In this document: positions 42,504 through 52,944 of the stretch, in pieces
Layout: each line of letters opens with the position of its first letter
Numbering within the stretch: the stretch's first letter is position 1
Origin: a candidate division KSB1 bacterium
GTDB taxonomy: Bacteria > Zhuqueibacterota > Zhuqueibacteria > Residuimicrobiales > Krinioviventaceae
Length of the DNA: 64,000 nucleotides
Assembly (NCBI GenBank): GCA_034521575.1
Contig: JAXHMJ010000005.1
Coordinates: forward strand, 1,736,001 to 1,800,000
Direction: 5' to 3'
Made by a program: the position numbers and the translations under genes
Notes under the pieces: generated by a model
Told to the model about the DNA's origin: nothing
Databases searched by the model: none
The model's input: the letters and a program-made list of their open reading frames with translations, nothing else

Positions 42504-42504
<1 letters not shown>
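41302..42504 (-). CDS. nqrB: Na+-NQR subunit B
   Basis: Largest membrane subunit, 400 residues and about ten spans, with covalent FMN, riboflavin and the quinone site. Starts at a GTG (42504) whose G overlaps the nqrA stop; AAGGAAGG precedes. Motifs: [33 protein letters not shown] and the FMN-attachment region [14 protein letters not shown]. Here the expected S-G-A-T pattern reads S-Q-A-T; the threonine is kept. C-terminal half matches [18 protein letters not shown] and [17 protein letters not shown]. The family is clear. Confidence 0.95.
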
Positions 42505-43853
<1,349 letters not shown>

Positions 43854-44106: not shown

Positions 44107-45507
44107 TTAAAACGTGATGTATTTTTCCGGATTAACCCGCTCATCCCCGTCCCGGATTTCAAAGTGCAGATGCGGACCCGTTGACCGGCCGCTGCTGCCC
44201 ACAAGACCGATACGGTCTCCGGGATCAACTTGCTCACCGACCTGCACCAAAACTTTACTTAACTGGGTATAACGGGAGGTCAAACCGTCACTGTGCTTGA
44301 TTACAATAAAGCGACCGTTCCCCTTTCCGACCTCAACTTTTGATACAGCCTTAGTGACCACACCCGCATGAACCGCCAAAACCGGTGTGCCTTTGGGCGC
44401 TGCCAGATCGATGCCTTTGTGCATGCGTTCTTGCCCGGTAAACGGATCAGTCATAGGTCCGAATCCGGCACTGATGCGGTAGCTGCCGGACGGCAATGGC
44501 GTCACGAATTTGCCTGTGTCTTGATGATTGCGTGCAGCCGCCGGAAGAACGACGATTGCGATGAGCGCCAGCATGAGTAACTGTTTCCAGGTAAATGTCA
44601 TTTGCTTTTCCTTTATGTTTTGAATTCGTTTTAAAAGCGCCGATTTTTGGCCGCCGAACAATAAAACAGCTTTCGGCTGAATAGAATCGGCTGTTTTTAA
44701 CCAGGTAATCAGTCCCTGCCCGTACGTCTGCCGGCTGATGACGTTTTGAGCCAGAACCCTCGAGTCGCACATACACTCGCGCGCGTTATTCAGTTTATGT
44801 GCGGCTACCCATACGGCCGGATGAAAGAAAAACAGGATCTGAATGAGTGTTTGTCCTGTGATCTGCAAATCATCCAGCCGTTTTATGTGCGCACATTCAT
44901 GCGCCACAATCGATTTTAGGGAGTTTTTAGCTGACAGTCCGCTTCGAGGCAGCACAATAACCGGACGAAAGACTCCCATGGTAAAAGGTGAATGCACCTG
45001 CTCCGACACTCTGACACGAATTCGTCTGCGGACTTTAAACTCTGTCCTCCAGTATTCGACCAGAGATAAAACGGCTGTTTGACGAACAGACGGTGCAGAT
45101 GCAGCATGCAAACGCCATACACGTCGCTGATAAAAATAATGTGCCAAAAGAATAATGACTCCTGCAAGCCAAAGCGCCGTTATCGCACCGGTAAAGCTAA
45201 ACAGCGAGGCAGAATGATTCAATCCAATACCAGATGATGAAAAAGAGACAGGCGCCTGAACATAAACGGATTGATTGCCAGGTAAGACCATCCGAAGCAG
45301 GTCTTCAAATAGCCGTTGTATGGACAATAAGTGAATGATAACAGGCGGAAAAACCAGCCTTATGAAAAACAGAGACCACAAACTGTAATTCCAAAAGACG
45401 GAACGCCGTTTTAAACCATATGTAGCTGCAAATATAATCAGAAATAAAATCAAGCCGTTCAAAGAACGGGAGAATAATATATCATAAATCACATGCAGGT
45501 CAATCAT
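44107..45507 (-). CDS. M56 (BlaR1-like) sensor fused to M23 lysostaphin-type peptidase
   Basis: The N-terminal part is a BlaR1/MecR1-like membrane metalloprotease: three or four spans, a long loop and the zinc motif VAHECAHIKRLDD (HExxH), followed by HPAVWVAAHKLNNARECMCD. After another span (LLMLALIAIVVLPAAA) comes an M23 peptidoglycan peptidase domain: MHKGIDLAAPKGTPVLAV with H and D, and GPHLHFEIRDG. Start ATG 45507 overlaps the blaI stop by eight bases. Instead of a penicillin-binding sensor, the extracellular part is a peptidoglycan hydrolase fold. This suggests sensing or cutting of cell wall coupled to BlaI control. Confidence 0.87.
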   Translation of the reverse strand: MIDLHVIYDILFSRSLNGLILFLIIFAATYGLKRRSVFWNYSLWSLFFIRLVFPPVIIHLLSIQRLFEDLLRMVLPGNQSVYVQAPVSFSSSGIGLNHSASLFSFTGAITALWLAGVIILLAHYFYQRRVWRLHAASAPSVRQTAVLSLVEYWRTEFKVRRRIRVRVSEQVHSPFTMGVFRPVIVLPRSGLSAKNSLKSIVAHECAHIKRLDDLQITGQTLIQILFFFHPAVWVAAHKLNNARECMCDSRVLAQNVISRQTYGQGLITWLKTADSIQPKAVLLFGGQKSALLKRIQNIKEKQMTFTWKQLLMLALIAIVVLPAAARNHQDTGKFVTPLPSGSYRISAGFGPMTDPFTGQERMHKGIDLAAPKGTPVLAVHAGVVTKAVSKVEVGKGNGRFIVIKHSDGLTSRYTQLSKVLVQVGEQVDPGDRIGLVGSSGRSTGPHLHFEIRDGDERVNPEKYITF

Positions 45508-45880
45508 GGTGTTCGTCCTCCTGCAAGAGTTGTTCGAGTTCTTTAATTTCTTGTTCTGACAAAGTCTGATGCTCAGCGAACATGGAAACCACTTGGGACG
45601 CATCAATTTCCAGGAGATTTTGGGCAAAAAACTGCACAAATCGCGCAAGTCCGGCCGGACGGCTGATCATCGGCTTGTACACATAGACTCCATGAAATGC
45701 CTCTCGACACAGCAATTCTTTCTTTGTCATTCGATCCATTACTGTTTTGGTTGTGGTATACGCCCAGGCGTGCATAGACTGTAATTGATCATGTACTTCC
45801 CGAACACTGGCACGTCTTTTCTTCCACAACACACTCAGAATATCATATTCGGCTTTTGTTAATTCCGGTAAACTTTTCAT
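45500..45880 (-). CDS. BlaI/MecI/CopY-family repressor
   Basis: A 126-residue winged-helix repressor, usually cleaved when its M56 partner is activated. DNA-binding part: ELTKAEYDILSVLWKKRRAS, VREVHDQLQSMHAWAYTTTK (recognition helix region), VMDRMTKKELLCRE; then a C-terminal dimer domain with the leucine- and acid-rich tail. It overlaps its partner gene by eight bases. A BlaI-type operator lies just upstream of the gene at 45897-45911, so it likely represses itself. Confidence 0.9.
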   Translation of the reverse strand: MKSLPELTKAEYDILSVLWKKRRASVREVHDQLQSMHAWAYTTTKTVMDRMTKKELLCREAFHGVYVYKPMISRPAGLARFVQFFAQNLLEIDASQVVSMFAEHQTLSEQEIKELEQLLQEDEHHD

Positions 45881-46124: not shown

Positions 46125-46355
46125 ATGAAAGAATTTGTTGAATACGTAGTAAAACATCTGGTAGACAGTCCGGAAGAAGTCAAAGTGACAGAAGTCGTTG
46201 GCGAAACAACTGTTGTTTATGAGTTACGTGTAAATCGTCCTGATATGGGTAAAGTCATCGGCAAAAACGGCAGAACAGCTCACGCGATGCGGGTCTTGTT
46301 AAGCGCTGTAGCTCGAAAAGCCGGTAAACACGCCACACTCGAGATTTTAGAATAA
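46125..46355 (+). CDS. khpA: KH-domain RNA-binding protein KhpA
   Basis: A 76-residue single KH-domain protein ([20 protein letters not shown], with the GxxG loop GKNG). It binds RNA and in other bacteria pairs with KhpB/Jag, the R3H protein; a double-R3H-motif protein is encoded at 33820. It normally lies in the rpsP-rimM operon, but here it stands alone with a 130-base leader and a strong terminator just after it. Confidence 0.92.
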
Positions 46356-46386: not shown

Positions 46387-46416
46387 AAGTCCATCAAATT
46401 ATTGATGGACTTTTTT
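46387..46416 (+). terminator. Intrinsic terminator after khpA
   Basis: AAGTCCATCAA (46387-46397), loop ATTA and TTGATGGACTT (46402-46412) form a perfect 11-bp stem followed by T's (46411-46416). It lies between khpA and the ParB-like gene. Confidence 0.9.
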
Positions 46417-46436: not shown

Positions 46437-47396
46437 ATGCAATTTGAATTCAAAACGATCGAACTGGAGCACATCAATATCCAGGATACAATATTTCAGC
46501 TTGTTGATGATAAAACCAATGCGCATCTAACTGACTCGATGGCATCAACAGGCCTTACAACACCGGTCTGGCTGCAGCAGCTTACGAACAGCTATCGTAT
46601 TATCAATGGATTTCAGCGCATTCGTTCAGCTTTGAAACTGGGCTGGCAGCAAATCGACAGCTATATTTTTCCCGACACACTCACAGATCTTGATGTATTC
46701 AAGATTCTCCTGAAGGAAAAAGGCTTTACCGGTCTCAATCCGGTTGAAAGTAGCGCTGTCATCCGCAAGCTCGAAAGCCACTTTGGACTGTATCAGGAGC
46801 AGATCATCCGTTCTTTTTTCCCGCTCATGAAGCTGGCGAATCCACGTTTGTATGATTTGTATTATCCACTGATCAGCCTCTCTCCCGCGTGGCAGTCTGA
46901 TATTTCTGAGGGTCTTGTATCGCTGGATGCTGCCGCACAGGTTGCAGAAATGGAGAAAAGAGATCAGGATAGCGTACATGAACTGTTCACCCGGCTCAAA
47001 CCCGGAAAAAACAAACAACGGCAATTTCTCTCTCTATTGACCGATGTTTCAAGATTGGAAAATTGCTCCGTGCACGAGTTGATACAGTCGCAGGAATTTG
47101 AAACACTGTTTAAACAGCAGCCGTCCAACCCCTCACAACTCGCCGCCGCCGTCAAGGAACATCTGATGTGCAGACGCTATCCGCAGTACAGCAAAACAGA
47201 ACAACAGTTTCGCAGCCTGTTACAAAAGGCCAAATGCCCTCCCAATCTGCGCATTCAGCATCCGCCGTTTTTCGAAGGAGAAACCTTTAGCGTGTCTTTT
47301 ACGTTCAAATCCGAGCAGGACTATCAACAAATACTGCAAAAACTCGATTCTTTTCTCGACAACGGATTAATCAGTGATTTGAAAGACCTGGCATGA
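46437..47396 (+). CDS. ParB/sulfiredoxin-fold N-terminal domain protein
   Basis: A 319-residue protein with a ParB-like N-terminal domain: LEHINIQDTIFQLV, LTDSMASTGLTTPVWLQ and YRIINGFQRIRSALKLGW (the ParB GxRR-type box as GFQRIR). Helices about 95-230 follow without a recognisable helix-turn-helix; the C-terminal part (about 250-319) is strand-helix. It lies far from any parA or origin and overlaps the radical SAM gene by four bases (ATGA). ParB folds bind CTP or act as nucleases or kinase-like enzymes; which applies is unknown. The tight coupling implies joint function with the radical SAM enzyme. Confidence 0.75.
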   Translation: MQFEFKTIELEHINIQDTIFQLVDDKTNAHLTDSMASTGLTTPVWLQQLTNSYRIINGFQRIRSALKLGWQQIDSYIFPDTLTDLDVFKILLKEKGFTGLNPVESSAVIRKLESHFGLYQEQIIRSFFPLMKLANPRLYDLYYPLISLSPAWQSDISEGLVSLDAAAQVAEMEKRDQDSVHELFTRLKPGKNKQRQFLSLLTDVSRLENCSVHELIQSQEFETLFKQQPSNPSQLAAAVKEHLMCRRYPQYSKTEQQFRSLLQKAKCPPNLRIQHPPFFEGETFSVSFTFKSEQDYQQILQKLDSFLDNGLISDLKDLA

Positions 47397-48496
47397 CCCA
47401 AACTGCAAAAAAATTCACCCCTAAACGCATTTTCATTGAAAAGAGCGTTGCCGAGACTGAATTCACCCGGCGGATTTTAGACCAGTTCAAGGTTGCTCAC
47501 AAACACATCAATGATGCCAATGCCCTGTTGACCCGCAGTGCAATCTCGCGTCGACCGCATCTCTGGAAAAAAAGCTTGCTTTTGGCGCGTCAGCGCGGAC
47601 CGTTCATGCGCCTCTGCCCGGGCACTCAAAAGCATATTTGCTGTTTGTATCACAATCTGGATGTTGCGGCAGGCTGCAATCTTGGCTGCACCTATTGTTT
47701 TCTGCAGGGATATCTGAACACACCGCTCATCACCCTGTACGCCAATCTAAATGACATGTATACAGAGCTTGAAGACAAAATCGCAAAAAATCCGAAACGA
47801 TTTTTCAGAGTGGGTACCGGCGAACTGAGCGACAGTTTAACATTCGACGATTTTACCTGCCTGTCCCGGGAGCTGGTGGAGTGGTTTTCCGAAAAGTCCA
47901 ATGCCATCATCGAACTGAAAAGTAAAAACACCCATATCGAAAATGTACTGGATTTAAAACATAACGGCCGCAGTGTGATTTCCTGGTCCATGAATTCTCA
48001 GGCCATGGCAAACAGCGAAGAATCTTCAGCCACCTCGCGAAATGAACGCCTTCGAGCGGCAAAAGCGGTGCAGGATGCCGGATATCGTATCGGATTTCAT
48101 TTCGATCCGATGATCCATCATTCCGACTGGCAGACCGGCTATCGGGAAACCGTGGACAAAATCTTCAAAGTCATAAAACCCGAAACCATTGCCTGGATCA
48201 GCCTGGGCGCGCTACGTTATCCGGCCGGATTTGATTCTGTCATCCGTAAAAACCATCCGGAATCACGTATTGTACTGGGGGAACTGGTCCCCGGCCTTGA
48301 TCAGAAACTGCGGTACTTTAAAAAAATCCGTATCGACATGTTCAAACACATGTATTCCTGGATCAAATCTTGTTCACCGGATGTCTTTGTTTATTTATGC
48401 ATGGAGCGGGAGGAAATCTGGCGGCGGGCATTCGGCTGGTCGCCCCGGAACAGCGCCGAGTTGAAAACGTTACTCGATGCCCGGGTCAAGCCTTAG
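47393..48496 (+). CDS. Spore photolyase-like radical SAM enzyme
   Basis: A 367-residue radical SAM protein. The iron-sulfur motif is C-x3-C-x2-C in AAGCNLGCTYCFLQGYLN, exactly the SPL-family context; later RVGTGELSDSL, FSEKSNAIIELKSKNTH, SWSMNSQ, GFHFDPMIHH and YLCMEREEIWRRAFG match the family. Spore photolyase repairs the thymine spore photoproduct in spore DNA, but there are no sporulation genes here. Many non-sporulating bacteria carry such relatives of unknown substrate. Start overlaps the ParB-like gene's stop. Cytoplasmic. Confidence in family is high, in substrate low. Confidence 0.85.
   Translation: MTQTAKKFTPKRIFIEKSVAETEFTRRILDQFKVAHKHINDANALLTRSAISRRPHLWKKSLLLARQRGPFMRLCPGTQKHICCLYHNLDVAAGCNLGCTYCFLQGYLNTPLITLYANLNDMYTELEDKIAKNPKRFFRVGTGELSDSLTFDDFTCLSRELVEWFSEKSNAIIELKSKNTHIENVLDLKHNGRSVISWSMNSQAMANSEESSATSRNERLRAAKAVQDAGYRIGFHFDPMIHHSDWQTGYRETVDKIFKVIKPETIAWISLGALRYPAGFDSVIRKNHPESRIVLGELVPGLDQKLRYFKKIRIDMFKHMYSWIKSCSPDVFVYLCMEREEIWRRAFGWSPRNSAELKTLLDARVKP

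Positions 48497-50900: not shown

Positions 50901-52937
<2,037 letters not shown>

Positions 52938-52944
<7 letters not shown>

Follow-up and report, generated by a model that had tools for sequence, protein, structure and literature searches.

Two adjacent genes of a KSB1 bacterium, encoding a ParB-like protein and a radical SAM enzyme of the spore photoproduct lyase (SPL) family, probably form an undescribed two-protein system acting on DNA. The pair recurs in many anaerobic bacteria, almost always as direct neighbours; SAR324, which has separated the two genes, keeps or loses them together. Our preferred reading is that the pair works as one unit, in which a ParB-type clamp bound to a nucleoside triphosphate (NTP) would place the SPL-type enzyme on DNA for light-independent reversal of a lesion; we give it a probability of slightly under one half. 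Each protein family is known; their combination appears to be undescribed. The first-pass annotation of this DNA knew of no function for the pair, and we likewise found no description of it in the full text of open-licence papers. A 2025 survey of ParB-fold proteins mentions neither radical enzymes nor photoproduct (PMC12704722).

Locus and gene layout

Both genes lie in the window, that is, the whole stretch of 64,000 nucleotides that was analysed, which belongs to a genome of 5.26 Mb. They are translationally coupled (Table 1): the four-base overlap noticed at first is present, as are the two motifs quoted with it, GFQRIRSALKLG at residues 58-69 of the ParB-like protein and CNLGCTYCFLQGYLN at residues 95-109 of the SPL-type enzyme. 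The gene just upstream, khpA (window 46125-46355), encodes a KH-domain RNA-binding protein. The usual setting of khpA is rpsP-rimM, and the window copy stands apart from that setting. A terminator had also been placed to the left of the unit. A hairpin with a T tract does lie between khpA and the pair, but the hairpin search returned 2 where 3.3 were expected in shuffles; by its position the hairpin is a plausible terminator, the count not being significant.

Table 1. Features of the gene pair. Nucleotide positions are those of the window; residue numbers are those of the protein named.
Feature	Position	Strand	Details
Terminator-like hairpin between khpA and the pair	46387-46412	+	11 bp stem and T tract, consensus match
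ParB-like gene	46437-47396	+	ORF of 319 aa (P0001)
ParB_N nucleotide-binding domain	residues ~1-99 of ParB-like protein		
GFQR box, equivalent of GERR (B. subtilis G77-E78-R79-R80)	46608-46619	+	Phe at the hydrolytic Glu position
ParB HTH-like domain	residues 100-210 of ParB-like protein		helical linker after it
ParB-type dimerisation domain, C-terminal	residues ~249-308 of ParB-like protein		
ATGA stop/start overlap of the two genes	47393-47396	+	
SPL-family radical SAM enzyme gene	47393-48496	+	ORF of 367 aa (P0002)
CPGT...CC motif (C75, C83, C84)	47615-47644	+	87/88 members; precedes cluster motif
CxxxCxxC, [4Fe-4S] cluster ligands C95, C99, C102	47675-47698	+	88/88 members; aligned with Geobacillus (Gt) SPL C90/C94/C97
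GTGE, Glu144 at the place of the SPL donor Cys (C140 Gt, C141 B. subtilis (Bs))	47813-47824	+	Glu in 88/88 members
CME motif (C336), C-terminal extension	48398-48406	+	87/88 members, the remaining one unaligned there

Elsewhere in the window, ligA (NAD-dependent DNA ligase, 50928-52944) is split by a frameshift near position 52500: frame 1 ends in GEHVARAAG and a stop, and the next frame carries on. This is probably an assembly indel error in an essential gene. An nqrA-like gene (42504-43853), read by eye from the ORF list, is apparently also in two frames (43077-43853 and 42504-42947), which seems to be a second sign of indel errors in this region. Inspection by eye also revealed a BlaI/MecI-like repressor (45500-45880), then a BlaR1-like membrane metallopeptidase (both within window 44107-45880). 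The C-terminus of the latter resembles, again by eye, a LytM/M23 peptidase instead of a penicillin sensor.

Co-occurrence and linkage of the two genes

The genomes compared are mostly drafts, and the counts were read from tables. Among 82 KSB1 genomes, 49 carry a window-type SPL gene. The ParB-like gene is present in 49 of these 49, although in three it was seen as a fragment or only at the locus. In about 47 of the 49, the two genes lie next to each other; one of the other two is cut by a contig end and the second is apparently unlinked. In the Syntrophobacteria, the class of Desulforhabdus, 42 of 49 genomes have the SPL-type gene, and all 42 have the ParB-like gene, adjacent in nearly all. 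The remaining Syntrophobacteria genomes hold neither gene (four), a long ParB-like match only (two) or a fragment only (one). Neighbouring copies of the two genes also occur in one Cloacimonetes, one 'Actinomycetes' and other deltaproteobacterial records, and the cultured sulfate reducers Desulfacinum and Desulforhabdus carry the pair. In SAR324 (40 genomes), the two genes are never adjacent, lying on separate contigs or 130 kb apart. Both are present in 24 genomes, the SPL-type gene alone in 1 (2 counting a weak variant), the ParB-like gene alone in 0 and neither in 14; the Fisher p for this co-occurrence is 1e-9 to 5e-9, uncorrected for shared ancestry.

When 82 linked loci from several phyla were compared, the genes overlapped or abutted in 59, with a median overlap of 4 bp. 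This exact overlap was found at 17 of 41 KSB1 loci and 10 of 35 loci of the Syntrophobacteria set. Distances within the ParB-like family track those within the SPL family (r 0.87 over 79 pairs, with at most 0.09 in permutations); this demonstrates that the two are inherited together, not that they touch. Around the pair, the other genes change from lineage to lineage but the partner stays, which is the opposite of the random neighbours that the first-pass annotation had named as grounds for giving up its idea. These 82 linked loci and the SAR324 co-occurrence are strong evidence that the two proteins are functionally linked, as the first-pass annotation had supposed.

In Syntrophobacteria, the pair usually lies behind a co-directional purC-like gene (named by eye; loci L146-L184). 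In part of KSB1 (L051, L052, L071-L077), a divergent ssb gene, or cytidine deaminase and nucleoside transporter genes, lie beside it. The neighbours are lineage-specific, with no constant third gene beside the pair and no constant parA-like neighbour. Hitch-hiking behind purC is possible in Syntrophobacteria, and the adjacency might then be an operon accident between functionally unrelated proteins. However, order and overlap are the same in separate phyla with other neighbours, and we give an accident next to no credence because the two genes co-occur unlinked in SAR324. Chance adjacency was rejected on the same observations.

Some KSB1 families depart from this pattern. Seven genomes of family f11 have the ParB-like gene without a window-type SPL: five of them hold a 430-480 aa SPL variant elsewhere, one has another SPL-family gene adjoining and one has none. 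In families f9 and f10, the 430-480 aa variant is present and the ParB-like gene absent; these variants that lack a ParB-like gene argue against our preferred reading. The SPL tree did not separate ParB-linked members from the 430-480 aa variants (support 0.11), and no monophyly is claimed. In the variants of the three families (L091-L097), GTGQ replaces GTGE and the CC and CME cysteines are kept. They carry an N-terminal domain of about 120 aa with no Pfam match, and no ParB-like gene adjoins them. The adjoining case (L098:425-3067) consists of a ParB-like gene, an 83 aa ORF and then a differing SPL-family gene, whose product is missing CPGT...CC and keeps GE and CME. A natural ParB-SPL fusion was considered at locus L062 and rejected, the 783 aa frame there overlapping the ParB gene in another frame.

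Searches of viral contigs returned no copies of the pair, and plasmids and phages held only distant SPLs of other subfamilies. Viral or plasmid spread was rejected, as nothing nearer than these was found, and both genes behave as chromosomal core genes. An anti-phage defence system was rejected as well, with a marginal PADLOC match (E 0.009), a core-gene distribution and no viral copies found. A division of labour in UV repair was also considered. The window genome encodes a CPD-type photolyase; in KSB1, photolyase scored above cut-off in 18 genomes, nearly all of them pair-bearing, and more than 30 pair-bearing genomes have none. As photolyase occurs in the window genome but is missing from many genomes with the pair, such complementarity was rejected, and general UV repair received no special support as the role of the pair, a point against our preferred reading.

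Fold and nucleotide pocket of the ParB-like protein

The ParB fold ascribed to the first protein was recovered by structure prediction. Its AlphaFold model (pLDDT 93.8) matches ParB-family PDB structures, although its ParB_N score (20.8 bits, E 4e-4) is below the Pfam gathering cut-off of 26.3. Family-based surveys can therefore miss the pair. Among the family members matched against Pfam, 23 of 26 matched ParB_N and 5 of 26 HTH_ParB. The best fold matches were PadC (Z 15.8, 97 residues), M. xanthus ParB (13.8), KorB (12.9) and Noc (11.3). Sulfiredoxin matched at Z 10.7; with PadC and ParB, it places the N-terminal domain in the ParB/Srx fold. PadC and M. xanthus ParB match the N-domain; KorB, a pNOB8-like ParB and Noc match the N-domain and the HTH. 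Aligned with hhalign to true ParBs of the same phylum, the family profile gave a probability of 99.4 over 260 columns and extended into the C-terminal dimer domain. Because of these fold matches and of a profile match reaching the dimer domain, we describe the protein as a divergent ParB with a predicted complete ParB architecture.

A role as segregation ParB (ParABS) was rejected. A separate ParB gene is present elsewhere in the window genome, the ParA-binding motif [LFI]G[KR]G[LFI], present in all 15 true ParBs compared from the phylum, was found in 0 of 86 ParB-like members, and the GERR Glu is missing.

The Gly and the last Arg of the GFQR box are kept in 85 of 86 ParB-like members, the remaining one being a fragment. 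Glu at the second position was found in 0 of 85 readable members; Phe takes its place in 62, and Leu, Ser, Tyr, Val, Trp or His in the others. GERR itself is intact in each of the 15 true ParBs from this phylum. CTP binding by B. subtilis ParB depends on Gly77 and Arg80, and hydrolysis on Glu78; the E78Q mutant does not hydrolyse CTP, yet its DNA loading and entrapment persist (PMC8494293). PadC, with Phe at the Glu78 position, binds CTP with no hydrolysis (PMC8494293). Because Gly and Arg are kept and Glu is lost, mostly to a PadC-like Phe, we infer that the ParB-like protein is an NTP-binding, non-hydrolysing switch. The first-pass annotation had noted that ParB-fold proteins bind CTP or cut DNA; the pocket of this one resembles that of non-hydrolysing PadC and not that of a CTPase ParB. 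Neither sequence nor AlphaFold3 reliably predicts the nucleotide chosen by a ParB fold, and ATP or GTP binding is possible (PMC12704722).

The HTH recognition region is weakly conserved in the family. With a pI of 5.9, the ParB-like protein is acidic, and none of its domains is clearly basic. No shared upstream palindrome (parS-like or operator) stood above chance at 40 KSB1 loci, and 38 Syntrophobacteria-type loci gave weak GC-rich words only, the upstream sequence there being mostly the end of purC. These three properties speak against our preferred reading. The absence of a shared palindrome in both sets also counts against another explanation, in which the ParB-like protein would, like KorB, control how the SPL-type gene is transcribed and stay outside the reaction. 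In favour of this explanation, KorB appears among the fold matches, two-gene operons commonly contain an autoregulating partner gene, and splB of B. velezensis is directly preceded by a gene for a SplA-domain regulator. SAR324, however, keeps the ParB-like gene although it is unlinked, and we regard such a regulator as quite improbable.

Family and fold of the SPL-type enzyme

The window enzyme is a member of the SPL superfamily (PF20903, 113.5 bits against a gathering cut-off of 27) and scores about 118.5 bits in the TIGR04070 equivalog model, below its cut-off of 400. Its AlphaFold model (pLDDT 91.9) matches Geobacillus SPL (4rh0/4fhc) with Z 36 and an rmsd of 2.2-2.4 over 322-325 aligned residues. 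The next best radical SAM fold reached Z 15.1, and no other PDB family came near the Z of SPL among the matches listed. To our knowledge, the characterised activity of the SPL fold is on DNA. The first-pass annotation had called the enzyme SPL-like, which holds for the fold but not for SPL proper: since the Bacillus-type donor Cys and relay Tyr are absent, its residues mark it as an SPL-family enzyme of another type.

SASP (PF00269) was not found in the window genome by a search that was positive on a B. subtilis control. This agrees with the non-sporulating host assumed at first; the bacterium is not the SASP-making host in which spore photoproduct forms. Because there is no SASP and the donor and relay residues are changed, spore photoproduct (5-thyminyl-5,6-dihydrothymine) is unlikely to be the substrate.

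The substrate might also not be DNA at all but RNA, a nucleotide or a protein, with the ParB-like protein as an NTP-sensing partner or scaffold. ParB folds have other roles (SbnI, free serine kinase, sulfiredoxin) and may bind ATP or GTP (PMC12704722), and the ParB-like protein is acidic. Radical SAM folds acting on RNA or proteins match the enzyme too, far more weakly, and some pairs adjoin nucleoside salvage genes (KSB1) or lie behind purC (Syntrophobacteria). On the other side, DNA-clamping ParBs have HTH and dimer domains like those of the ParB-like protein, the resemblance of the enzyme to SPL extends along its entire chain, and the neighbours vary between lineages. We consider a non-DNA substrate rather unlikely.

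Catalytic residues and cysteines

The roles of the SPL residues were taken from PMC3742179. At the position of the relay Tyr99(Bs), the 88 members have Ile (70), Val (10), Phe (6), Ala (1) or Tyr (1). Tyr101, at the position of Tyr97(Bs), is invariant, and Lys178 lies in an ELKxK motif. The DNA hairpin region is shorter than in Bacillus SPL, and the CME extension is absent from Bacillus SplB (B. velezensis SplB compared).

In profile alignments with 4rh0 and 4fhe, C75 aligns opposite residue 76 of Gt SPL, whether the engineered Cys is present or not. The PDB entry 4rh0 is the Gt SPL mutant C140A/S76C. This mutant reportedly regains activity, in work of Benjdia and co-workers from 2014. In C. 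acetobutylicum SPL, a conserved Cys at position 74 lies on the pocket side opposite Bs Cys141, and dinucleotide spore photoproduct is still repaired (PMC5368176). Because of the alignment to Gt residue 76 and the precedent of this Cys74, C75 would be the best candidate for the H donor. The loop to the first cluster Cys spans 20 residues from C75, 14 from Gt S76 and, by our own count, 17 in the phage protein; with loop lengths differing in this way, the equivalence of C75 to Gt residue 76 or to a Cys74-type donor is probable. C83, C84 and C336 could be donors instead, or ligands of a second cluster. Fusobacterium and phage proteins without Cys141 share a wider clade with the SPL-type enzyme (FastTree support 0.97).

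That Glu invariably stands where SPL has its donor Cys suggests a changed reaction. This would suit a pair that modifies normal DNA bases (hypermodification or epigenetic marks), the enzyme being led to its sites by the ParB-like protein, and ParB folds fused to predicted DNA/RNA methyltransferase domains do exist (PMC12704722). The distribution as a core pair, with no constant modification or restriction gene in third place, no mobile context and no PADLOC match of weight, makes base modification unlikely.

Proposed mechanism

In the reading that we prefer, lesion reversal by a clamp-borne enzyme, the ParB-like dimer would bind NTP, probably CTP, without hydrolysing it, and close on DNA in the manner of ParB-family clamps. 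The clamp would then recruit or position the SPL-type enzyme, which would cleave SAM at its [4Fe-4S] cluster. Abstraction of an H atom from a damaged base, likeliest a covalently joined or otherwise modified pyrimidine, would allow the base to be restored in place, a cysteine of CPGT...CC returning the H atom as Cys141 does in Bacillus SPL. The differing donor and relay residues and hairpin length count against this scheme, as the reaction itself may differ.

We more tentatively suggest that the pair represents a separate kind of DNA maintenance, in which an NTP-gated, non-hydrolysing ParB-type clamp free of segregation would bring a radical SAM enzyme to DNA. It would perform light-independent reversal in non-sporulating anaerobes, with a relocated Cys donor like the engineered S76C. 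Should the enzyme indeed be carried by the clamp, this would be, as far as we know, the first ParB-type clamp to serve a radical enzyme. The pair makes two subjects testable: ParB-fold switches outside segregation, and SPL-family enzymes in non-spore-formers.

Comparison with known systems

The ParB-like protein resembles ParB, Noc and KorB clamps in domain order, fold and a 260-column profile match. Unlike them, it has no ParA-binding motif, no GERR Glu, a degenerate ENxQR and no constant parA-like neighbour. PadC of Myxococcus xanthus (6ryk) is the best match to its N-domain and shares the Phe at the hydrolytic Glu position. However, the part of PadC that matches, residues 290-387, is one domain within a larger protein, whereas the ParB-like protein adds HTH and dimer domains.

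The enzyme shares with SplB (4fhc, 4rh0; TIGR04070, PF20903) the fold over its whole length, CxxxCxxC, Tyr101 at the place of Tyr97(Bs) and Lys178 of ELKxK. In contrast to SplB, it has Glu for Cys141, Ile, Val or Phe for Tyr99, the added CPGT...CC and CME cysteines and a shorter hairpin region; it also has a ParB-like partner and a host without SASP, and falls below the TIGR04070 cut-off. SPL of the C. acetobutylicum type has likewise lost the donor Cys at position 141 and carries a Cys in the loop that precedes the cluster (PMC5368176). The loop from C75 to the cluster, however, differs in length from those of Gt SPL and the phage protein, the sequences used for this comparison.

SOS-linked SplB-like photolyase genes with ImuB-C or SRAP partners are also known (PMC3765255). 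Their partners are not ParB, and the TIGR03886-type proteins compared keep the donor Cys. What they have in common with the pair described here is an SPL-family gene joined to the gene of a DNA-associated partner, outside sporulation.
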